DNA from: a virus
Length of the DNA: 60,069 nt
IMG/VR virus record: IMGVR_UViG_3300039037_000048
Coordinates: 1 to 60,069 of that record
Direction: 5' to 3' (one strand)
A program made the position numbers and the translations under genes. Positions 38,344 through 54,843 of this stretch are shown piece after piece. Every line of letters starts with the position of its first letter. Positions within the stretch are counted from its first letter, which is position 1. The notes beneath the pieces are model-generated. The model was not told where the DNA came from and did not search any database. It saw only the letters and a list, made by a program, of their open reading frames with translations.

Positions 38344-39011
38344 TCTGCAAGGTAACCATTTTCTTTTAGCCATTGCCCTGTCAGTGGTGTGGGTGGATAC
38401 ACTTTCCACATCTCACCAGTAGCACAGGCATCCAATGCTTTAGCAGTCATACCTTCAGTGCGACCTGCCCAGGATGCTTCTGCTTCCCAAGGCACTGCAT
38501 TTTTAGGATAGGTACGTTCAGCAAGTGTGCGCCAGATCGTAGGAACTGCCTCTTCAGGTTTGATAATAGCGATCATACTATTCTTGATAGTACCCGCCAT
38601 GCAATCCTGTGCAGCGTGCCACCCTTCATGTCTAGTGACACTCATAAGTGTGCTTTGACGATGCATGAAAGCATCATTCAAGAAGAAGTTATTACCTACA
38701 GTATGATAGACACCTCGGTGTCCTGGTGGAAAGTATTTTGTATCTGCTAGAAAGACCTTAACTCCGACCCTATTAAAAGAGGCGATGATGTCATTAAACT
38801 CACGAGCAACAGCATCATAATCACTGTCGGGATAGCGATCGATAATATCTTGAATACTTGTGATTCGTTTAACATTGTCGGTACACTCTAGTAGCATCAT
38901 GCATCCCATAGAATCCATAGTGTGGTAACCCTTGGTGGGTTCCGCCGCTACAGGCACAGTCATACCATGTGCTGCTCCGAAGAGCAGACCTGACAAAATA
39001 TACTTAAACAT
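38340..39011 (-). CDS. Exported HExxH metallopeptidase-like protein
   Basis: A 223-aa protein with signal peptide (MFKYILSGLLFGAAHG..., cleavage near VAA-EP) and the zinc-peptidase signature HEGWH (HExxH) in SVTRHEGWHAAQD, about residue 128. Five or more Cys suggest disulfides outside the cytoplasm. Possible role in lysis or envelope protein cleavage. The ATG at 39011 has GAGG 7 bases upstream; a late motif lies at 39031. Confidence 0.7.
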   Translation of the reverse strand: MFKYILSGLLFGAAHGMTVPVAAEPTKGYHTMDSMGCMMLLECTDNVKRITSIQDIIDRYPDSDYDAVAREFNDIIASFNRVGVKVFLADTKYFPPGHRGVYHTVGNNFFLNDAFMHRQSTLMSVTRHEGWHAAQDCMAGTIKNSMIAIIKPEEAVPTIWRTLAERTYPKNAVPWEAEASWAGRTEGMTAKALDACATGEMWKVYPPTPLTGQWLKENGYLAD

Positions 39012-45683: not shown

Positions 45684-46403
45684 TCAGACGTTGCGGATAG
45701 CAAAGTCAAGGGCAGACTGATAAGTAGCAGCATCTTTGTTCAGCATGTAGCGGAACTGGGTCTGTTGCTCATCAGGCAGCTGTGCATAACAAGCAGCGAT
45801 ACGCTTCGCTGAAAAATTGTCCAGGTTCTGTTCAGATCCATCACCAAATGTAATCTTGGCAAAGGATGCTTCGCCCGAAGGATTGAGTTCGGAGGTTGCA
45901 ACCTGTAGTGCAACGTCCAGGGCGTCCATTTGTGCAGCAGATTCAGTCATAATTTCTTTAGTCACTTCAGTTTCTTCTTTCTTAAGTTTCTTGGTCTGAT
46001 CAGATGCTTTCTTTTTGAAGTCAGACATACGTGCCTTCATCAAAACGTCCATTTCTTTCGTCTTGGACTGCATCTTTTTCTTCGCTTCGTCACGCTTCTT
46101 CTGTAGATCCTTGGCACGGTTCAGTTTTTTCATCTGACCGATTTGCTTCTGCGCTCTTTCTGTTTCGGAAGGAGCTGCTTCTACAATTTGTGCTTCTAGT
46201 TCTTCTTTCATTTTCTTGCGGGACTGTATACGAGAGAGCATTTGTTTTGCACCTTTAGTGCGACCGTCTACCTTGTCTTGATTTGCTTTCTTATATCTAC
46301 GGTGAGACTTTGGGTTAACAAAGACGAACGCAGGTGGCATTGACAAAGCAGCGCCATTACCTGCCATCATTTCATTCACAGTAGATTTAGATTCTTCAGA
46401 CAT
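45684..46403 (-). CDS. Lys/Glu-rich coiled-coil protein
   Basis: A 239-aa protein: a disordered N-terminus with SMPPAFVFVNPKSHRRYKK, a long Lys/Glu coiled coil (about 50-170), then a small C-terminal domain. The composition resembles scaffold or prohead-core proteins, but no family is recognised. Overlaps the previous gene by 28 bases. Confidence 0.68.
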   Translation of the reverse strand: MSEESKSTVNEMMAGNGAALSMPPAFVFVNPKSHRRYKKANQDKVDGRTKGAKQMLSRIQSRKKMKEELEAQIVEAAPSETERAQKQIGQMKKLNRAKDLQKKRDEAKKKMQSKTKEMDVLMKARMSDFKKKASDQTKKLKKEETEVTKEIMTESAAQMDALDVALQVATSELNPSGEASFAKITFGDGSEQNLDNFSAKRIAACYAQLPDEQQTQFRYMLNKDAATYQSALDFAIRNV

Positions 46404-46732
46404 TCTTGATCAACGTCGGTGTTGAGTGTTTCAGGTAAACGATTGAGGACCAACATGAATGCTTTCAATGTGGACCAGTGTTTCGCCTCTATCTTATAGA
46501 ACAATAGAGGCGTAGCAGCATCATCAAATACATTGTACATGACGATAATGTGGTTTAGGATGAGATGAACCTTCAACTCACCGTGCATTTCATAACGACG
46601 AAATAAACGTTTGACGCACTTAATCTTATTTAGATCTTTTTTGAAGTCGTCAAACGTAACAGAGTTCGGGTTATTATAATTACGTATAGCAAACATCAAC
46701 CAGTTATCCTGGTTCAACTCATCGAACTTCAT
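46376..46732 (-). CDS. Conserved hypothetical protein
   Basis: A 118-aa helical protein (FDDFKKDLNKIKCVKRLFRRY, HLILNHIIVMYNVF). I recall this family in many T4-type cyanophages; function unknown. Lies between the structural Ig-like gene and the coiled-coil gene. Confidence 0.73.
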   Translation of the reverse strand: MKFDELNQDNWLMFAIRNYNNPNSVTFDDFKKDLNKIKCVKRLFRRYEMHGELKVHLILNHIIVMYNVFDDAATPLLFYKIEAKHWSTLKAFMLVLNRLPETLNTDVDQECLKNLNLL

Positions 46733-46737
46733 CTATA

Positions 46738-47319
46738 TCATTCTGCAGTAGTTACTACAGCGGTAGCAGAGATGACTTCTGGAGCACCATTGGTAGAGGT
46801 GAGCTTGACTCTGTAAGAACCAGCATTCTCCACAGCATAAGGATCAACATCATAGGTGGGTTGATTAGCACCGATGTTTGCCCAGCGTCCTGCAGCAGAT
46901 AGTTTCTGCCACTGATACTGCATAGCAGAAGCATCACCAGGAGGTGTGGAGATAGCGGCAACCGACAGAGCAAGAGGATCACCAACAGCAACTGCTTGAG
47001 TAGCAGGTTGGGTATTGATGGTGATGAGTACAGCCTCGTCTGCTGCTACACTGTCATCAGATTGAGTCTCGCTAGAGTTCGCTTCAGGATCAGCGATAGT
47101 TACAAGCATTTCTGCCTTATGACGGGTGTTACCTTCACAGTCAGTATAGGTGTAGTAGGACCACCAACCAGGAGCATTCAGACCGCGAGCTTTGTTCTCC
47201 GCGAGTGCTGCTTCGGTGTCGTCAATAAAAATTGTTTGCTTTGCTTGCGATGATGCAGCGATGCCAATGCCTGCTTTAGCTTTGTTCGCATTGCTATCAT
47301 CCTTTCCGTATAAGGACAT
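46738..47319 (-). CDS. Virion structural protein with Ig-like domain
   Basis: A 193-aa protein. The first 80 residues hold a Trp/Tyr-rich segment (APGWWSYYTYTD); residues about 95-190 form an Ig-like domain (VAVGDPLALSV, YQWQKLSAAGRW, NAGSYRVKLTS). Ig-like domains decorate phage capsids and tails and may bind host surface carbohydrate. Expressed from a consensus late promoter. Confidence 0.78.
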   Translation of the reverse strand: MSLYGKDDSNANKAKAGIGIAASSQAKQTIFIDDTEAALAENKARGLNAPGWWSYYTYTDCEGNTRHKAEMLVTIADPEANSSETQSDDSVAADEAVLITINTQPATQAVAVGDPLALSVAAISTPPGDASAMQYQWQKLSAAGRWANIGANQPTYDVDPYAVENAGSYRVKLTSTNGAPEVISATAVVTTAE

Positions 47320-47348
47320 GAGAATACCAGGTCTATGTTTGTCTGAAT

Positions 47349-47356
47349 ATATTTAT
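47349..47356 (-). promoter_or_regulatory. Late promoter (TATAAATA)
   Basis: Exact T4 late consensus directly after the T run of a terminator, 30 bases before the Ig-like protein gene. Confidence 0.75.
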
Positions 47357-47386
47357 AAAAAAAGGGAGAGGCACACTGCCTCCCCC
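47356..47386 (-). terminator. Intrinsic terminator
   Basis: AGGGGGAGGCA/TGCCTCTCCCT, 11 bp with one G.U pair, 3-nt loop and seven T on the minus strand. Ends the 66-aa gene; its T tail merges with the next late promoter. Confidence 0.87.
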
Positions 47387-47395
47387 TAGTAATGA

Positions 47396-47596
47396 TCACT
47401 CTTCGCGAGCTTTAATTGCTGCGGTAACTGCTTCTAGAAGCTGATCATCCATGTCAGTCTTGGTTAGTTTGACTGCTTTACCTAGGATAACTAGGCAGAT
47501 ATCGATCAACTTTTCTCCGAGCTCTTCGTTGTCGGGAATCTTTGCGACAGCATCAGTGATAATCTTTGATGCTAATGGAAGTAAGAATGCTAGCAT
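47396..47596 (-). CDS. Small hydrophobic/amphipathic protein (66 aa)
   Basis: MLAFLLPLASKIITDAV start, then an amphipathic helical rest with Leu/Ile heptads. Possibly membrane-associated. Single-gene late unit between promoter 47623 and a terminator. Confidence 0.68.
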   Translation of the reverse strand: MLAFLLPLASKIITDAVAKIPDNEELGEKLIDICLVILGKAVKLTKTDMDDQLLEAVTAAIKAREE

Positions 47597-47622
47597 GATT
47601 TTAGGGGCATAGTATACCCAAA

Positions 47623-47629
47623 TATTTAG
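47623..47629 (-). promoter_or_regulatory. Late promoter (CTAAATA)
   Basis: CTAAATA overlapping the TAA stop of the frameshift extension, 27 bases before the 66-aa gene. A TATACT box lies a little further downstream. Confidence 0.62.
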
Positions 47630-47752
47630 TCTGCCTTACGCTGACTTTTCAATGCCTTAAGAATGTACTTCTTATTCTTCTTATTGTGCTCCTTGTCTTC
47701 AGCAGCGCCGTCTTTAATTTCAGGCATCACTTCGACGTGAGCACCCTTCACT
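47626..47752 (-). CDS. -1 frame extension of the 317-aa protein
   Basis: After the A AAA AAG site the -1 frame remains open for 41 codons (begins VKGAHVEVMPEIKDG, ends LKSQRKAD), a Lys-rich charged tail. It has the same composition as the main protein, as expected if both are one coding unit. Independent initiation at an internal ATG is possible but has no ribosome binding site. Confidence 0.7.
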
Positions 47753-47772
47753 TTTTTTCTTCTTCGATCTCC
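47723..47772 (-). promoter_or_regulatory. Programmed -1 frameshift cassette (dnaX-like)
   Basis: Upstream AAGGAG Shine-Dalgarno-like element 11 bases before the slippery heptamer A AAA AAG (47751-47757), TGA stop in the zero frame immediately after it, then a 5-base spacer to a stem GGTG(C)TCAC/GTGATGCC with loop GTCGAA (47723-47745). These are the parts of the E. coli dnaX frameshift site in the same order. Confidence 0.8.
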
Positions 47773-48701
47773 TTACGAAGTTCTGCCTGCTCCTTCATCT
47801 TCTTCTTGGTGTTGATGATCTTGGAGACCTTCTTGCGACGTGCTAGAAGATACTTGTCAGACTTATCGTGATCGCCATCGTTGTCGATGTCCTTGTCTTC
47901 CTTGCCTACGGGATCGAGTTTCTTCTCTTGAATCTCTTCTTCCTTGACACAGTTAGGAACAGACTTGCCACCTTTCATCTTGGTGCCCTTTGCCTTGTAA
48001 CCTTTCCAGCAGGTAGAAGCGCCGACATTCTTACGTGCCTGCTTCATGCTGCCTTCTTCGACTACTTCGACTTCTCTTTCAAAGATGAAAGTTTCGCCAT
48101 CGAGTTCAAACGATACCTCTTCCTTCTTTGCTGTTCTTGCGCTCTTCTTGAAAGCGTCCTTTGCAGGATAGTCTTCCGAACCTGGTTTTGCGGGTGCTTC
48201 GCCGCGCTTTCTCTTTGCATGGATGTTAGCGTATAGACCTCTCTTTGCTTCAGAAACAGCTTCTTCTTTCTTCATAGAAGCCTTATCTTCCTTCTGACAC
48301 TTGGAGCACCCTTTTCCTCCACAATAAGAGCAGGTTTCCTCGCGGGCAACCACCTTCGTGGTGTCTTTAATTTCCGCTCCGTGAGACTGTTTGACACCAC
48401 TGCCAGTACGTAGATCGGTAGCAGGATCAGGAGCACCTGCATTTGCTTTAGGGTCCTTCGTTGCAAAGTCATCCTCACCACCTTTCTTCTGAAGTTCGGG
48501 GATTGAAGTAGATGCATCAGCACCACCAGCAGGACCAGGAGCTCCTAGTTCTTTCTTCTCTGGTGCAGGGATAGCAGTTGCTTCCTCTAGTGTGGACTGT
48601 TGGAATCCTGCTCCACCCATCCACTTTGTATAGGAATCCATAAGTGCCTCTGAATAGGCATCATTATGCTGCACACTATTGACTGGTTTCTGTCTTTCCA
48701 T
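47748..48701 (-). CDS. Charged multi-motif protein, probable frameshifted gene
   Basis: A 317-aa protein: Pro/Gly/Ala-rich first third, then CSYCGGKGCSKC (a DnaJ-type zinc motif, about 122-133), KRGLYANIHAKRKR, a STCWKGYKAKGTK segment, and DIDNDGDHDKSDKYL, an EF-hand-like calcium loop, followed by a Lys/Glu helix. I recall these motifs in cyanophage virion or core proteins, but the function is unknown. It ends at a strong -1 frameshift site, so a longer form is likely. Late motif GATAAATA 28 bases upstream. Confidence 0.72.
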   Translation of the reverse strand: MERQKPVNSVQHNDAYSEALMDSYTKWMGGAGFQQSTLEEATAIPAPEKKELGAPGPAGGADASTSIPELQKKGGEDDFATKDPKANAGAPDPATDLRTGSGVKQSHGAEIKDTTKVVAREETCSYCGGKGCSKCQKEDKASMKKEEAVSEAKRGLYANIHAKRKRGEAPAKPGSEDYPAKDAFKKSARTAKKEEVSFELDGETFIFEREVEVVEEGSMKQARKNVGASTCWKGYKAKGTKMKGGKSVPNCVKEEEIQEKKLDPVGKEDKDIDNDGDHDKSDKYLLARRKKVSKIINTKKKMKEQAELRKEIEEEKK

Positions 48702-48951
48702 TGTTGAAGATACTACTTTTCCTTTCTTTATTTATCGTATCAACTACTTGCAAAGCACGGATGTCTTTCACCCACGCTCTAAACATCTCACCAGACTCGG
48801 TGATTGCGATGACATAGTTGACGCCTGATCTATGTATAACACCTTTCTGTCCAGTCAAAGCATTGAATATAACATCACCTTCAGCAAACGTATCCGTCTG
48901 TCTATGCTGCTGTCGGACTGCCTGCTCGCGTAACTTTTTGAAGTCTTTCAT
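48676..48951 (-). CDS. Small SH3/KOW-like hypothetical protein
   Basis: A 91-aa protein: basic helix then a beta-rich stretch (GDVIFNALTGQKGVIHRSG, NYVIAITESGEMF) resembling a small SH3-like or KOW fold. Overlaps both neighbours (26 and 4 bases). Function unknown. Confidence 0.68.
   Translation of the reverse strand: MKDFKKLREQAVRQQHRQTDTFAEGDVIFNALTGQKGVIHRSGVNYVIAITESGEMFRAWVKDIRALQVVDTINKERKSSIFNNGKTETSQ
48729..48736 (-). promoter_or_regulatory. Late promoter (GATAAATA)
   Basis: GATAAATA on the minus strand within the 91-aa gene, 28 bases before the 317-aa gene. Confidence 0.5.
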
Positions 48952-49511
48952 TTAAAATTAGCTGGTAGTGCTCCTTTGATTTCCATCATCATTGCTCTAC
49001 AATCACGGTCATTCAGTGCTCTGGGGATACCAGATCTAAATGTTTTGAAGTCACCAGCAAATGCTGCTCGTCGCATCTTCGTTCCTGAAATAGCAAAGGT
49101 ATCTCCATCAGCATCTCTGCTGCCTGAAGATTTGATCTCAATCTTACGAAAAGAAAATTCGGTTCCGTTGTATTTATGGAGGAACTGCATGGCGTTGACT
49201 CTATCAGAACCCACAAGGAACACTACCTCATTATACCCTGCCATCATAAGGTCCTGTAAGATCTCCACGGGTTGTTTAGGACCCGAAAAGATTTTACCCT
49301 TATGCTCTGGGAACATCTTTTCCATGTAGAATAATTTACGATCAGGTGAGAGGGGATTCTTTCCTTTAGCGTCGTGGGATTGAGAAATATAAATGCGATA
49401 ATCATGTCTTCCTGCGGCACGTTTCACTCCGTCAAAGTTATCTTTATGTCCTGTAGTAGGTGGTTGGAATCTGCCAAACGTGAAGTAGCAGGTCTTGCAG
49501 TTTAACGCCAT
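48948..49511 (-). CDS. NMNAT/cytidylyltransferase-like nucleotidyltransferase
   Basis: A 187-aa Rossmann-type nucleotidyltransferase: YFTFGRFQPPTTGHKDNF (the T/HxGH site), a central VVFLVGSDRVNAM strand, and ISGTKMRRAA (ISxTxxR) near residue 155. Enzymes of this superfamily transfer AMP or CMP, for example onto nicotinamide mononucleotide to make NAD. Substrate not determinable here. Neighbours are a ligase-like and a nuclease-like protein. Confidence 0.82.
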   Translation of the reverse strand: MALNCKTCYFTFGRFQPPTTGHKDNFDGVKRAAGRHDYRIYISQSHDAKGKNPLSPDRKLFYMEKMFPEHKGKIFSGPKQPVEILQDLMMAGYNEVVFLVGSDRVNAMQFLHKYNGTEFSFRKIEIKSSGSRDADGDTFAISGTKMRRAAFAGDFKTFRSGIPRALNDRDCRAMMMEIKGALPANFK

Positions 49512-50695
49512 TGCTTTTGTATCGTGAAGTTATTGAATGCAAACTCAAAGCGATTGACAAACTTAATCATGCTGCCATCTTTGTGCATAACATATCCTTC
49601 AGGTGTCGTCACCTTATATCCATTCTCTGTCTGGACATAGGTTCTGAACTCTTCCAGGTGGTCTAGTTTATCTATAACCATTTGCTTAAGAGTTTGAAGC
49701 TCTTTGTACAGAGCAATCATTGCCTTAAACTTGTAGACATTATCTAGGAGATAATTCTCACTCTTATACACCAACGCACACTTCTTGGTTCTGTTAGCAA
49801 CTGTCTTGATCTTTGCCAACTCCTTCTGCATCTTCTCATCGTAGAAGTTTACCAGGGCATTGACCGTTTCGTCCACGTTCGTAATCTGTGTCCCAGTTCT
49901 AACCTCGGAGTTGAAAAATTGTTTGATGTAGGTGGAGATGTGAAACTTCGCATCCCCAGTGCTACCCATATTGGAAACAAGATCGTCAAGAAAATCACCA
50001 GCAAGTGAACACATGCGTTCGATTTTTTGTACATGGTTGTCGAAGCGTTGTAATTCTTGCTGGGTAAATCCAACTCGATCCATTGGTGTATCATTCTTGA
50101 TTACCAATGCATCAGCAGAACCAGTAACATCAGCACCCGCTCTTGCCTGCATCTCCGACAAGATACTTCCAGTGTAATGTGTATGGAATACCACTCCTAT
50201 TTTAGCAGCTCTTGCTGCTCTGCCAATAGGATGATCAACAGGTATACCATATGTAATAGTATTTGGACGGAAAGTGTACAACCTTTCCCCCTCCACAGTT
50301 TCTGTTTTTAGATCACTAGTAAACAAAAGGTCTCCTTGCACGACACCCTTGATACCTAATTGACTAAAGTATTTTAAGGAGAACTTTAATTTCTCTGCCA
50401 GGTCACCAGAGTACAGCATGTCAATCTTTGCTTCTGATGCACAGATTTTTGGTTCTGTTTTGTTGAACACAGACTTGGTTCCAACAAAGAAGTACCCATG
50501 CTCTGGATGTGTACCACAAATGACAGATGGAGCACCATCCCACTTGGTTTGCATAAAACCTTGTGAGTCCTGATGACCTAACATCTTACGAAGTTCTTTC
50601 AGGAAGGACACTGCTGCCTTACATCCATCGACGCCGTAGTTCAGCATCTCATCTTCCAGGTGTTCTAGATGTTTGAGCTGTTTAATGTTAGACAT
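49502..50695 (-). CDS. Ligase-like nucleotidyltransferase (KxDG protein)
   Basis: A 397-aa protein with elements of the covalent nucleotidyltransferase (DNA/RNA ligase, capping enzyme) superfamily: K51-W-D-G (motif I), GVVQGDLLF about residue 120 (like motif III) and SADALVIKND (like motif IV). A long helical C-terminal half follows. I think it matches a phage family of unknown function (DUF6267). The ATG at 50695 is one base inside the stop of the upstream gene (TAATG). ATP-dependent adenylation is inferred. Confidence 0.68.
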   Translation of the reverse strand: MSNIKQLKHLEHLEDEMLNYGVDGCKAAVSFLKELRKMLGHQDSQGFMQTKWDGAPSVICGTHPEHGYFFVGTKSVFNKTEPKICASEAKIDMLYSGDLAEKLKFSLKYFSQLGIKGVVQGDLLFTSDLKTETVEGERLYTFRPNTITYGIPVDHPIGRAARAAKIGVVFHTHYTGSILSEMQARAGADVTGSADALVIKNDTPMDRVGFTQQELQRFDNHVQKIERMCSLAGDFLDDLVSNMGSTGDAKFHISTYIKQFFNSEVRTGTQITNVDETVNALVNFYDEKMQKELAKIKTVANRTKKCALVYKSENYLLDNVYKFKAMIALYKELQTLKQMVIDKLDHLEEFRTYVQTENGYKVTTPEGYVMHKDGSMIKFVNRFEFAFNNFTIQKQWR

Positions 50696-51714
50696 TACTC
50701 TGAATCTACTCCCTTGTCGATAGAACCTGGCCAAGGAGCAACACTCATCTTCAGTCCTGTTGCTAGTTGAGTACCAGAGAACTTAAATCTAATCTGAACA
50801 ATCTGTTTTTCACCTGCTTTTACACCAATAGTATAACCATCTTTACCACCTAGGTTCTCATACTTGAGTGGTTTATTTTTTCTTACCAGTGCATCAAACT
50901 TTGCATTGCCTAGTGGGTCATCTACCGTTGCTTGCACCACAGATAGTGTCTTGTCAGATCTACCAGTCACCTTAACGTACTTGGGTAACTTATCTGTATC
51001 CAGCAACTCGTCAAGGATATACATTTTGATGTCAATATCACCCATTCTGGTGAATGCATCCTTCAGAATGTCTCTACACCCACCAAGAATCTGTTTGGTA
51101 TACTTCTCATTGATGACCTTAAATTCAGGATCATCTTTCAATGCTTTTACTTTATCTTTATTCAGATACTTATTAGAGTAAGGTATGCCAGACTCCTTGT
51201 GTGCTGCACTGACACCCTCTTCCAGTAACTTTTGGAACACACCAGGTTGACCAATGAAGTCTTCAATCTTACCCATGCCTGGGTTCTTCACGGGTGCCTC
51301 TTGAGTCAGTGTTTTGAGCAAAGATTTAGCAGATAATCCTAGATAAGGGTCGTCATACTTGGTAGACGATCTGAACTTTACTAGAACATCAGTGGGGTTG
51401 TTCTTACTTTCCTCAACGTAAGTAGAAGTATACTTACCAGGCAAACTTCTGTAGTTGAACGAGGATTTAGCGGTCCAATATACCTTATCTACTCCTCTGT
51501 AACCATTCTTTCCTGCCCACTCTAGAAACTTCTCTGCCATGACTTCTGCCTGGGCAACACGAGCGTTCAGTTCATCAGGTTTTTTGGAAAGCTTTGCGTA
51601 TCGATCATCATAAACTGCCTTGTCTGTAGCATCCAGACCACCAGTCCACGACTTACCGTTAAGATACCAGGCACAGTGCAGTTCATTAACGTCAGCACTA
51701 ATATTTTCTGCCAT
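50695..51714 (-). CDS. PD-(D/E)XK-like protein, unknown
   Basis: A 339-aa protein. PTDVLVKFRSS...YLGLSAKSLL (about 105-130) has the D...[G/S]-x-K spacing of restriction-type endonuclease cores; the C-terminus ends in a beta-rich VQIRFKFSGTQLATGLKM stretch. No name can be given. GGGGAGG lies 7 bases before the ATG, within a hairpin that also contains a late promoter. Confidence 0.62.
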   Translation of the reverse strand: MAENISADVNELHCAWYLNGKSWTGGLDATDKAVYDDRYAKLSKKPDELNARVAQAEVMAEKFLEWAGKNGYRGVDKVYWTAKSSFNYRSLPGKYTSTYVEESKNNPTDVLVKFRSSTKYDDPYLGLSAKSLLKTLTQEAPVKNPGMGKIEDFIGQPGVFQKLLEEGVSAAHKESGIPYSNKYLNKDKVKALKDDPEFKVINEKYTKQILGGCRDILKDAFTRMGDIDIKMYILDELLDTDKLPKYVKVTGRSDKTLSVVQATVDDPLGNAKFDALVRKNKPLKYENLGGKDGYTIGVKAGEKQIVQIRFKFSGTQLATGLKMSVAPWPGSIDKGVDSE

Positions 51715-51719
51715 ACAAA

Positions 51720-51748
51720 ATACCTCCCCTAGTATTTAGAGGAGGTAT
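51720..51748 (-). promoter_or_regulatory. RBS-hiding hairpin containing a late promoter
   Basis: ATACCTCC/GGAGGTAT perfect 8-bp stem, 13-nt loop. The loop holds CTAAATA (51733-51739); the downstream arm is the Shine-Dalgarno sequence of the 339-aa gene. A transcript starting at the late promoter would lack the upstream arm and leave the binding site free; read-through RNA would hide it. Confidence 0.72.
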
Positions 51749-51753
51749 AAAAG

Positions 51754-51951
51754 TCAGGCAGCTTCTTTGCCAAGATATTCATTGTCAAGAGTGTAGTTGT
51801 GCTTGTGCTCTTTAGTGAGGAGGTAGTATCCAATGATATTACTACCATCATCACGCCACCCATACCCAATCAGTGCTTCTTTGATGCCATTCCAATCGGG
51901 TGTCTTGTCAGTGTGCAGATAGTGGTTGAACTTCTCATGCAGATTGATCAT
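51754..51951 (-). CDS. Small conserved protein (65 aa)
   Basis: Starts MINLHEKFNHYLHTDKTPDW and contains GYGWRDDGSNIIGYYLL. No domain recognised; compact globular pattern. Between mazG and the hairpin-controlled gene. Confidence 0.7.
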   Translation of the reverse strand: MINLHEKFNHYLHTDKTPDWNGIKEALIGYGWRDDGSNIIGYYLLTKEHKHNYTLDNEYLGKEAA

Positions 51952-52024
51952 AGGGTGGATGCGTCTGTATGTATTTTATCAGGAATCTCGCACAAAACCA
52001 GGTCTCTTTATAAATTCTTCAGGA

Positions 52025-52429
52025 TCAACGATCATCCGATGCGCGATTCTCTGAATAGAAGATGTCAAACTGTCCACCAGGATACCGTTTCTCCAGTTTC
52101 TTGACGTTGGTCTCGATCACTTCTTCAAAAGAAACACCAAGTGCTTGAGTTGCCTGTGCAACATACCACATCAGATCACCCAACTCAATAATCATGTGCT
52201 CTCGGTTGTCCTCGTTAAAGGGTTTACCTTGGAACACCATCTTCTTAACGATCTCCAAGAATTCACCACCTTCAGCATTGATCCCAACGCCAGCAGTAAG
52301 AAGACGCTCAATGTTGGCACCCTTTCGATCAAGTTCAACAAGGCGGTCAGCAAGGTCCACAAAATTTGTAGAAGCATCGGACGTAACTGCCGATACAAAC
52401 TCTTCATAGCGAGAGAATTCAATAGTCAT
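52025..52429 (-). CDS. mazG: MazG-like nucleotide pyrophosphohydrolase
   Basis: A 134-aa all-helical protein with the MazG core: E-x-x-E in NAEGGEFLEIVK and E-x-x-D in IIELGDLMWYV. MazG hydrolyses NTPs/dNTPs; the cyanophage enzyme was once thought to lower host (p)ppGpp, but later biochemistry pointed to dGTP/dCTP. Lies beside replication genes. Confidence 0.88.
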   Translation of the reverse strand: MTIEFSRYEEFVSAVTSDASTNFVDLADRLVELDRKGANIERLLTAGVGINAEGGEFLEIVKKMVFQGKPFNEDNREHMIIELGDLMWYVAQATQALGVSFEEVIETNVKKLEKRYPGGQFDIFYSENRASDDR

Positions 52430-52430
52430 G

Positions 52431-53828
52431 TTAGATTACGAATTGAGAAAATTTGTCTAGTCTAGATTGCCTGTCAGAGATGTCCTCCAGGCGGTCGAAG
52501 GTCTCCTCTTCAGGAGCATCGGAAGCGGTGAGTTCTCCTTCCGAGTCGTCAACATTATACAACTTCATCTTCGCCCTGTCAATCCCCACCGTGAAACGAC
52601 GGAAATACGTGAGATCATTATATCGATTTTTAAGTTGCTTAACCATGATGCGACCTGACTGCTCAAGCTCTTCAGTAGAAATAAGAGCAAGCATAAGGTC
52701 AGCAGTAGCGGGTAAACCAAAAGACTCACTAGTATCAGTGAGATCGACATCACTATTGCCGAAACCACTACGAGTGGTTTGAGTAGCAGATACAATAGGA
52801 AGGTCGTGCTCGACAGCAAGACCTCGTAACTCTTCTGCAATCGCTTTGACATAGGTATATGAATTGACAATGTGACCCTTGTAGCGAGATGAGGCACAGA
52901 TGTTCAGATAGTCAATGAAGATAATGTTGGGGCGAAAGTCTTTCTTGAGAGAAAGATCGCTCAACAATGCTTTGAAGTGACCAGAATGTGCTGACGCAGT
53001 GGGATACTCTTTGATGATGAGTTTACCCTGTGACTTTCTTCCAATCTCATTGACTCTATTCTCAAAGATTGTTTGGGGCATCTCCCCAATATCTTTGATG
53101 TTAACGTTCAACAGGTTAGCGTCAATACGTTCAGCGATCTTTTCTTCTGCCATCTCTAGAGTGATGTACAGAACGTTATACCCAATGGATAAACAGGATG
53201 CTGCCATGTGACACATGAACAAAGACTTACCTACGCCTGTGCCTGCGAGTGCAATGTTCAGTGTCTTGTTAGGAAGACCACCTTTAGTGATGGTATTCAA
53301 CTTCTCAATGTCAAATGGAATCTTATGTTCTTCCAGATGATAATAGTCGTATCGTTCTTTTACATTCTCAACGTAGTCGTGTCCGATGTGTTCATCAAAC
53401 GATACTGCGAGAGCCTGCTGTAGGATACTCGGGATCGCATCCTTTGATACTTTCTGTTCACCGCTTCCCTCTGCGATTTTGATAGATTCAAGGAGGGCGT
53501 TGTAGACTGCCCTCTCCTGACACCACTTCTCCGTCGCGTCAACCAACCACTTCGTCTCAATATATTCTTGAGAAAGTGAATTGAGTTGCGAAACACTCGC
53601 CTTAAAAGTCTCTTCAGTAAGGTCATTGCGTTGATTGAGGTTGATAATTAGGACTTCTTTAGTCGGATACTTATCATACTTGTTAGAAAAATCTTGAATC
53701 TCTTCAAAGAGGACTCGCTCTGATTGTTCTTGAAAGTATTCACCTTTGATGAAAGGGACTACCTTACGAAAATACTCCTCATTGCAAAGCAGGTTCCTCA
53801 AAATTGAGAGTTCAAGCTTCTCCGTCAT
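52431..53828 (-). CDS. 41: Replicative DNA helicase gp41
   Basis: A 465-aa DnaB-type helicase: N-terminal helical domain, Walker A GTGVGKS near residue 200, Walker B FIIFIDYLNIC, and a motif with SATQTTRSGF. Unwinds the fork 5'-3' with gp61 primase. The acidic C-terminus resembles other gp41 tails. Overlaps uvsX by 17 bases. Confidence 0.93.
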   Translation of the reverse strand: MTEKLELSILRNLLCNEEYFRKVVPFIKGEYFQEQSERVLFEEIQDFSNKYDKYPTKEVLIINLNQRNDLTEETFKASVSQLNSLSQEYIETKWLVDATEKWCQERAVYNALLESIKIAEGSGEQKVSKDAIPSILQQALAVSFDEHIGHDYVENVKERYDYYHLEEHKIPFDIEKLNTITKGGLPNKTLNIALAGTGVGKSLFMCHMAASCLSIGYNVLYITLEMAEEKIAERIDANLLNVNIKDIGEMPQTIFENRVNEIGRKSQGKLIIKEYPTASAHSGHFKALLSDLSLKKDFRPNIIFIDYLNICASSRYKGHIVNSYTYVKAIAEELRGLAVEHDLPIVSATQTTRSGFGNSDVDLTDTSESFGLPATADLMLALISTEELEQSGRIMVKQLKNRYNDLTYFRRFTVGIDRAKMKLYNVDDSEGELTASDAPEEETFDRLEDISDRQSRLDKFSQFVI

Positions 53829-54843
53829 CGTCTGCTCCGTACAAGAATGTCTTCTGTGCCTGTTTATCTAGTTCGGCAAGAACTTCGGGTGTGAAATACT
53901 GCTCGGGATCTTTCAGAATCTGTTTGGCATAGACTTTCTTGCCGCCGATTTCATATCGACCAGCAACATTCTTCCACAGACCTGCTGCCTCACCGAGCTC
54001 AAGCAATCCATAGTGTTGTTCCAGACCACGTTCATCAAAGAACAGTCTTGTTTCAATCTTGGAACCCTCTCGGGTCAGACGAGACTTTTTAGCCTCGCAT
54101 TTGATAATGTTTCCGATGAGTACCGTTCCATCTTTCTCCTTTTTCTTTCCGAGATAAACGATTGTAGAGGCGGAATATTTGAGACCACTTCCTCCTCCCA
54201 TTTCCTTTGTAGGAACGTAAGCGCCGACGACATCATAGGTGTGATTGGTAACCAACATAGGTATATTAGCCTTACCAAGCTTGAGTGTAAGGATTCTGAA
54301 GCAAGACTTAATAAGTTGCGCCTTGGTCATGTCGCGAACGTTCTTGTCGTTCGACGCATCCTCAACCTCTTTATTGGTGGCTAGCATACCAAGAGAGTCT
54401 AACACAAACATCAGGGGTTTGCGATCCTCTTTGGGCGTTTCCATATATTTGTCGATGATCCTGACTGCCTGGGTCCTGAACTCCTCCACTGTATTGACAG
54501 GGAAGATGACCATACGCTTGGCATCGATGCCACGACTCTCGATCATCTGCTTACTAATGGCAGACTCGGTTTCAAAATATAAGACGCCAGCGTCAGGGTC
54601 AGCATCAAGGAAAGAGCGAACGACAGAGAGGCAAAAGAAAGTCTTTCCCGTGCCTGATTCTCCTGCCAAGGCAGTGATTTTGTTGGAAGGAATACCTCCA
54701 AAAATCGAACCACTAACAAGGGCATTAAAGATATAACTACCAGTATCAACAAAAGTTTCAACATCACCAGCAGCGATGCCGTCAGATGCACGAGAAGCAA
54801 ACTCATTTTTAGTGTCCTTCAGGACGGATGATAAAAAATCCAT
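53812..54843 (-). CDS. uvsX: RecA-like recombinase UvsX
   Basis: A 343-aa protein: Walker A GESGTGKT (residues 61-68), Walker B MFVLDSLGML, and the DNA-binding loop region MGGGSGLKYSAS. Catalyses strand exchange for recombination-dependent replication. The ATG at 54843 (MDFLSSVLKDTKNEFA) matches the family start better than one 45 bases upstream, and sits 3 bases after the gp43 stop. Confidence 0.93.
   Translation of the reverse strand: MDFLSSVLKDTKNEFASRASDGIAAGDVETFVDTGSYIFNALVSGSIFGGIPSNKITALAGESGTGKTFFCLSVVRSFLDADPDAGVLYFETESAISKQMIESRGIDAKRMVIFPVNTVEEFRTQAVRIIDKYMETPKEDRKPLMFVLDSLGMLATNKEVEDASNDKNVRDMTKAQLIKSCFRILTLKLGKANIPMLVTNHTYDVVGAYVPTKEMGGGSGLKYSASTIVYLGKKKEKDGTVLIGNIIKCEAKKSRLTREGSKIETRLFFDERGLEQHYGLLELGEAAGLWKNVAGRYEIGGKKVYAKQILKDPEQYFTPEVLAELDKQAQKTFLYGADDDGEA

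Follow-up and report, generated by a model that had tools for sequence, protein, structure and literature searches.

A 60,069-nucleotide stretch of viral DNA (IMG/VR virus record IMGVR_UViG_3300039037_000048, positions 1 to 60,069; hereafter the window), which derives from a T4-like cyanophage (Kyanoviridae), carries a run of minus-strand genes between 47748 and 51714 that we interpret, tentatively and with slightly less than even confidence, as a cassette of head cargo carried by T4-like marine phages, made up of a nuclease that can be exchanged, a ligase-type enzyme and an NMNAT. The identities of the encoded proteins, the exchange of the first gene, the coupling of the genes and the capsid-targeting peptides of related proteins are all established at the level of sequence comparison. 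Neither the exchange nor the head-targeting N-termini of relatives had been noticed in a preliminary description of the region.

The first gene, which we call up339 (50695..51714), encodes a 339-residue protein and is followed by genes for a 397-residue ligase-type DUF6267 protein (49502..50695; Pfam PF19782, 8e-130), a 187-residue NMNAT-like nucleotidyltransferase (48948..49511) and a 91-residue protein with a small SH3-like domain (48676..48951; phrog_4808, 4e-49). The length of the DUF6267 protein is counted from the ATG at 50695, and a 410-residue form in the list of open reading frames (ORFs) begins at an earlier TTG. Stops and starts overlap by 1, 10 and 4 bases along this series, and the ORFs confirm the coordinates, strand and overlaps given in the preliminary description. 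The span it proposed (48676-51714) does hold these four genes and is slightly short, as a fifth gene encoding a Lys/Glu-rich 317-residue protein with a DIDNDGD block (47748..48701; phrog_4359, 8e-119, and phrog_22379) shares 26 bases with the SH3-like gene and is part of the set. Fusions are seen among the PHROG profiles, with ligase and NMNAT joined in phrog_455, NMNAT and SH3 in phrog_395, and SH3 and the 317-residue protein in phrog_22379, so that both fusion and gene order tie the five genes together. In the window's clade, defined as loci with DUF6267 proteins at least 50% identical, gene order is conserved, and in 80 of 82 loci the first gene and DUF6267 meet in a 1-base overlap, whatever the family of the first gene. 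The conserved order and the fused profiles phrog_455 and phrog_395 strengthen the earlier suggestion that the genes have a joint function.

The position before DUF6267 behaves as a slot. We gathered the gene preceding DUF6267 from IMG/VR loci and isolates, and found that 159 loci with 128 distinct proteins fall into at least 11 families without BLAST similarity to each other; comparison of six of these families by hhalign also found no similarity. The genes at the same point in phages S-CAM1, S-CAM3 and Syn1 are different from and unrelated to up339, which itself has no match at an E-value of 0.01 in 50,697 phage records. Relatives of up339 are present at 17 IMG/VR loci, together with one 35%-identical relative and 47 further IMG/VR loci, and DUF6267 is again found downstream in 31 of the 43 distant loci with enough room for it. 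Residues E11, N106-P-T-D109 and S128-A-K130 (followed by S131 in up339) are kept throughout the up339 family at identities down to 35% (33 distinct sequences).

A D...S-x-K signature is shared by nearly all of the slot families. A joint alignment was built from 76 of the 128 distinct proteins, with families 0 and 1 thinned to distant members, families 2 and 4 represented by one protein each, and six contig-end fragments omitted; its only invariant columns (76/76) are the initial Met, an Asp and a Lys, and at least 90% of the proteins have a Ser two positions before that Lys. When the families are aligned separately, a D-hydrophobic...S/E-x-K block is conserved in 10 of 11, with family 4 missing the strict form and E-L-K replacing S-x-K in the family of loci L056 and L072. 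Shuffled columns reach this block in no more than 0.2% of trials for six families and in 0.35% and 1.3% for two others; the test is uninformative for families 2 and 7 (0.42 and 0.07). A strict P..D..SxK pattern is present in 69 of 114 slot proteins versus 23 of 269 other ORFs. A looser D..[SE]xK pattern was discarded as evidence, being present in 114/114 slot proteins but also in 228/269 others.

Matches to known nucleases are confined to part of the set. The PADLOC model REase_II for Type II restriction enzymes matches 14 of the 76 aligned slot proteins (best 1.7e-12), and the matching proteins that were scanned singly all belong to family 3; up339 itself does not match. Comparison of the slot families with Pfam and NCBIfam yielded no usable match, and a profile search of PDB sequences with the restriction enzyme-like family found no relative. 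The structural model of up339, built from 10 close relatives, has a predicted local distance difference test (pLDDT) score of just 59, too poor for placing the motif inside or outside a nuclease fold; the H-E-H-E-E-H order of its secondary structure across residues 46-139 fits a PD-(D/E)XK fold, but the model has no useful PDB match. A conserved Asp followed by x-K, together with an acidic residue in an N-terminal helix, is present (E11, D109, S128 and K130). The slot protein is thus most likely a PD-(D/E)XK-type nuclease in which Ser replaces an acidic residue, in agreement with the D109...S128-A-K130 spacing picked out by eye in the preliminary description and its nuclease-like label, and we infer that it has nuclease activity.

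In the DUF6267 protein, K51-x-D53-G54 (the KWDG motif described earlier), Q120-G-D122, E366-G367 and K378 are invariant among 45 relatives with identities down to 37%, and these residues, which we take to represent motif I, the motif III region, motif IV and motif V respectively, occur in the order expected of ligases. Its AlphaFold model (pLDDT 85.4) aligns best in VIA-align with the Naegleria RNA ligase 6vt8 (178 aligned residues; root-mean-square deviation 3.9) at a Z-score of 8.2, a level near which matches can arise by chance according to the tool's own warning. T4 Rnl2 (Z 6.4), archaeal RNA ligases and DNA ligases follow; ligases make up most of the 50 rows, and the first unrelated row is at Z 5.8. 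Foldseek gave weak matches (E 0.3-0.5), and a profile search of PDB sequences found no relative. We consider the fold match convincing even with Z near 8 because the motifs agree, and we found no indication that the KWDG motif lies outside a ligase fold. By motifs and predicted fold the protein is a member of the covalent nucleotidyltransferase superfamily of ligases and capping enzymes, and it would presumably act as a ligase. It contains a helical insert at about residues 212-345, between motifs III and IV, and stops 19 residues past K378.

Two DUF6267 loci have peculiarities of their own. In phage S-PM2 (L004 4992-6771) the reading frame of DUF6267 is interrupted and the annotation of a cytidyltransferase gene takes in its second half, while another S-PM2 record (LN828717) gives a single unbroken match, so the interruption may be a genuine frameshift or an error in the sequence. 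A DUF6267 gene behind a D...ELK slot protein (L258 8001-9170) also lies on a 188-kb contig in the assembly of the isolate Nonlabens xiamenensis 1Q3, probably from a co-sequenced phage.

The 187-residue protein contains the T-x-GH and ISGTKMRR motifs noted in the preliminary description and matches PHROG cytidyltransferase families (phrog_3041, 2.4e-69; phrog_395, 1.9e-35). It scores just below the cut-off for Pfam PF01467 (20.6 versus 21 bits), has matches in 523 of the 50,697 phage records, and retrieves no relative in a profile search of PDB sequences. On these profile matches we assign it to T4-GC190 as an NMNAT/cytidyltransferase-like protein, which bears out the earlier NMNAT-like label. 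T4-GC190 is a core gene of 16 cyanophages whose product has been detected in virions of S-SM1 (PMC3037559), and the earlier statement that no gene of the module has an assigned role does not hold for this one. The SH3-like domain described earlier is present in the 91-residue protein, though this is not an independent protein in origin: it matches the C-terminal part of phrog_395 (positions 208-274, 1.7e-8), and residues 281-343 of the S-SM1 NMNAT match a separate gene in S-CAM1, S-CAM3 and Syn1. By these alignments it represents the C-terminal domain of fused NMNAT proteins, split off as a separate gene in the window's clade. Annotations of this gene as 'ribonucleotide reductase alpha subunit' or 'NrdB' (loci L001-L003 and L007-L096) appear to be wrong. 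The 317-residue protein has a 29-residue block in common with gp160 of phage S-CREM2 (E 5e-7), appears disordered as judged by eye, and is a probable head-core protein.

Evidence for packaging comes from the N-termini of relatives. The peptide of T4 IPIII is an example of a capsid-targeting sequence, and Alt is a cargo enzyme. The T4 rule requires hydrophobic residues at positions 4, 7 and 8 and Glu at position 10, with cleavage after L/I-x-E (PMC9026906). The letter sets of our pattern were fixed after some of the N-termini had been seen, and the S-SCSM1 protein was examined afterwards. We counted matches in 183 distinct ligase loci, merging those with identical ligase DNA. Outside the window's clade, 34 of the 93 ligases begin with a capsid-targeting peptide, as do 29 of the 64 NMNATs and 10 of the 75 slot ORFs; among background ORFs, 34 of 1471 do so. 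The ligases with such peptides belong to several phage groups, Melnitz and DLP6 are among the relatives that bear the peptide, and both the slot protein and the ligase carry one in loci including Melnitz-1 (L184), L266, L269, L274 and L276. The start of the SH3-like protein was also considered as a head peptide, but in an alignment with the fused proteins it falls at the beginning of their SH3 domain, and this reading was rejected.

NMNATs of three relatives have been reported in virions. The cytidylyltransferase gp154 of S-CREM2 (PMC10665884) and the NMNAT of S-SCSM1 (PMC9602691) are listed as virion proteins, and the N-termini of both, together with that of the S-SM1 NMNAT, fit the T4 rule. 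S-CREM2 particles also contain gp155, gp156 and gp160, encoded near the NMNAT (PMC10665884). Across 149 of the 219 S-CREM2 genes, the peptide is found on 6 of 51 virion proteins and on none of 98 others, the carriers being an S-adenosylmethionine (SAM) hydrolase (gp6), a Cas9-like protein (gp12), gp13, a kinase (gp14), gp136 and gp154. The peptide pattern also matches an ORF at 38380-38604, gp71, which the published virion list does not include. Separately, the head-targeting peptides on gp6, gp12, gp13 and gp14 (L188 3837-13331) make injection of the Cas9-like protein possible.

Taken as a head-cargo cassette, the locus would have an exchangeable PD-(D/E)XK-like endonuclease in its first position, the ligase-type covalent nucleotidyltransferase DUF6267 in its second, an NMNAT/PPAT-type nucleotidyltransferase with an SH3-like domain, either fused or split, in its third, and a putative disordered head-core protein as its last gene. 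The capsid-targeting peptide found in many relatives would bring the enzymes into the prohead, where the prohead protease would trim them, and they would then be injected with the genome. After injection the nuclease would be the first to act, with nucleic acid of the host or of a rival as its target and with the ligase-type enzyme and the NMNAT as general partners. A more specific version, in which the heads carry a cut-and-seal weapon (or the genes are inherited from ancestors that had it), with a fixed ligase and NMNAT chassis onto which any of twelve or more unrelated PD-(D/E)XK-like nucleases can be swapped by exchange at the 1-base junction, giving each phage its own cutter at the start of infection, we consider possible but doubtful.

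Several observations weigh against the head-cargo interpretation. In the window's own clade none of the 90 ligases and none of the 86 NMNATs has the peptide, and the window's slot protein also lacks it; packaging in this clade is therefore unproven, and both it and the target are matters of inference. Proteins of this clade may be cargo without a peptide of their own, or may have returned to intracellular work. The authors of the virion studies caution that carry-over of abundant proteins is possible (PMC10665884, PMC9602691). The slot motif has Ser where PD-(D/E)XK enzymes have Asp or Glu, up339 showing S128-A-K130 in place of a (D/E)-x-K dyad, and Foldseek and VIA-align retrieved no PDB nuclease with the low-confidence up339 model. 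DUF6267 lacks the OB domain with motif VI that would follow motif V in a DNA ligase, has no other domain there, and is not classed here as a DNA ligase. Lastly, short DUF6267 genes occur alone, without a nuclease neighbour, in S-SSM7, P-SSM5 and Bellamy.

A first alternative is that the cassette serves nucleic-acid processing or RNA repair within the infected cell, with the nuclease-like protein trimming ends, the Rnl2-like ligase resealing them and the NMNAT supplying nicotinamide adenine dinucleotide (NAD) or a nucleotide; the peptides for head targeting would then be a lineage-specific addition in the relatives. This would suit the absence of the peptide from the window's clade, the position of the cassette among the replication genes gp43, UvsX, gp41 and gp61, and the fact that the nearest folds to DUF6267, from Naegleria and T4 Rnl2, are those of nick-sealing RNA ligases. 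It does not readily explain why NMNAT relatives are found in virions or why ligases from several phage groups bear head peptides, and a quickly replaced nuclease is unlike a housekeeping repair enzyme; we regard it as rather unlikely.

The slot gene could instead encode a sequence-specific restriction nuclease directed at rival phages or host DNA, with the phage protected by purging the site from its own genome. Besides the REase_II match of one slot family, this idea draws on the loss of whole short sites: the window has 4 CTNAG sites with 282 expected and no CCGG with 49 expected, and Syn1 has 0 GTAC of 574. GGCC is also scarce in the window, at 8 sites with 54 expected. One 4-5-base palindrome (CTNAG, GTAC, GANTC, GATC, CATG, TCGA or others) is absent in 101 of the 159 loci, by lineage. 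The missing site, however, tracks phage lineage and not slot family. Where two loci differ in slot family but their DUF6267 proteins are 88-95% identical, they share it in 87 of 87 pairs; where the slot family is the same and the DUF6267 proteins are 80-88% identical, they share it in only 25 of 87. Moreover, cutting at CTNAG would be needed in five unrelated slot families. We therefore think this explanation improbable. A narrower association of CTNAG loss with family 4 and the window's slot family was rejected on the same grounds, as the trait crosses slot families. The sites may have been lost through host restriction or another phage nuclease. No methyltransferase was seen among the genes of the module, the genome itself not having been searched for one.

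About equally improbable is an NAD-linked counter-defence in which the NMNAT restores NAD+ depleted by host defence, DUF6267 is an AMP-transferase that consumes NAD or ATP and acts on protein or RNA, and the slot protein is a separate weapon. The TxGH and ISxTxxR motifs and the virion NMNATs, for which their authors made an NAD proposal (PMC10665884, PMC9602691), would fit this, while the sub-threshold PF01467 score argues against it, and the analysis turned up no substrate. That all of the proteins are plain structural head components with degenerate enzyme folds is very unlikely: the neighbouring gene does encode a Hoc-like head protein (46738-47319; phrog_613) and the NMNAT is found in particles, but the invariant residues, among the 45 ligase relatives and the 33 slot sequences alike, are the catalytic ones.

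Window positions 46000-54000 are 86% identical to Synechococcus phage S-CAM1 across 86% of that span, and the cassette is flanked by gp41/MazG and by the Hoc-like gene, then the gp61 primase, an arrangement shared with S-CAM1 and Syn1. A minus-strand CTAAATA word (51733..51739), which we presume to resemble a T4-type late promoter, lies 19 bases upstream of the slot gene; the window contains 15 copies with 6.65 expected, and none of 100 shuffles reaches 15. A scan for terminator-like structures gave 8 sites in the region with 2.9 expected, including a 12-pair minus-strand hairpin (51720..51748) that overlaps the promoter-like word as well as the slot gene's ribosome-binding region and could be a terminator or could control translation.

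If these genes do form a head-cargo cassette, T4-GC190, which has stood since 2010 as a virion protein with no role assigned, gains partners and a likely route into the particle, and a single mass-spectrometry experiment with a single enzyme experiment could put its role to the test. Exchange of unrelated putative nucleases beside a conserved next gene would be an unusual signature of an arms race, and the peptide rule predicts other injected proteins of marine phages, such as the Cas9-like protein, kinase and SAM hydrolase of S-CREM2. We found no mention of DUF6267 in the literature searched, and, judged by titles and abstracts, no cassette of this kind in the literature on capsid targeting and cyanophages or on injected nucleases and ligases.

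The enzymes have counterparts in known systems. The slot proteins share the P..D...x-K core of PD-(D/E)XK Type II restriction endonucleases, and one family matches REase_II, but they differ in having Ser for Asp/Glu, in the ligase-type partner gene and in not tracking the purged sites. DUF6267 shares motifs I, III, IV and V and the overall catalytic fold with ATP-dependent RNA ligases such as those of Naegleria and T4 (Rnl2) and with DNA ligases, from which it is distinguished by the helical insert, an N-terminal HLEHxED helix and the lack of an OB or other domain after motif V. The 187-residue protein belongs with the cyanophage virion NMNAT/cytidylyltransferases, and compared with other T4-GC190 proteins has no N-terminal extension and an SH3 domain that is absent or split off. 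The cassette as a whole has a parallel in the internal head proteins of T4 (Alt, IPI, IPII and IPIII), with enzymes delivered together with the DNA. The cargo would here be nuclease-like, ligase-like and NMNAT-like, and the window's clade is without the peptide, but enzymes of many relatives have the same N-terminal spacing (hydrophobic residues at 4, 7 and 8, Glu at 10; PMC9026906) followed by the cargo.

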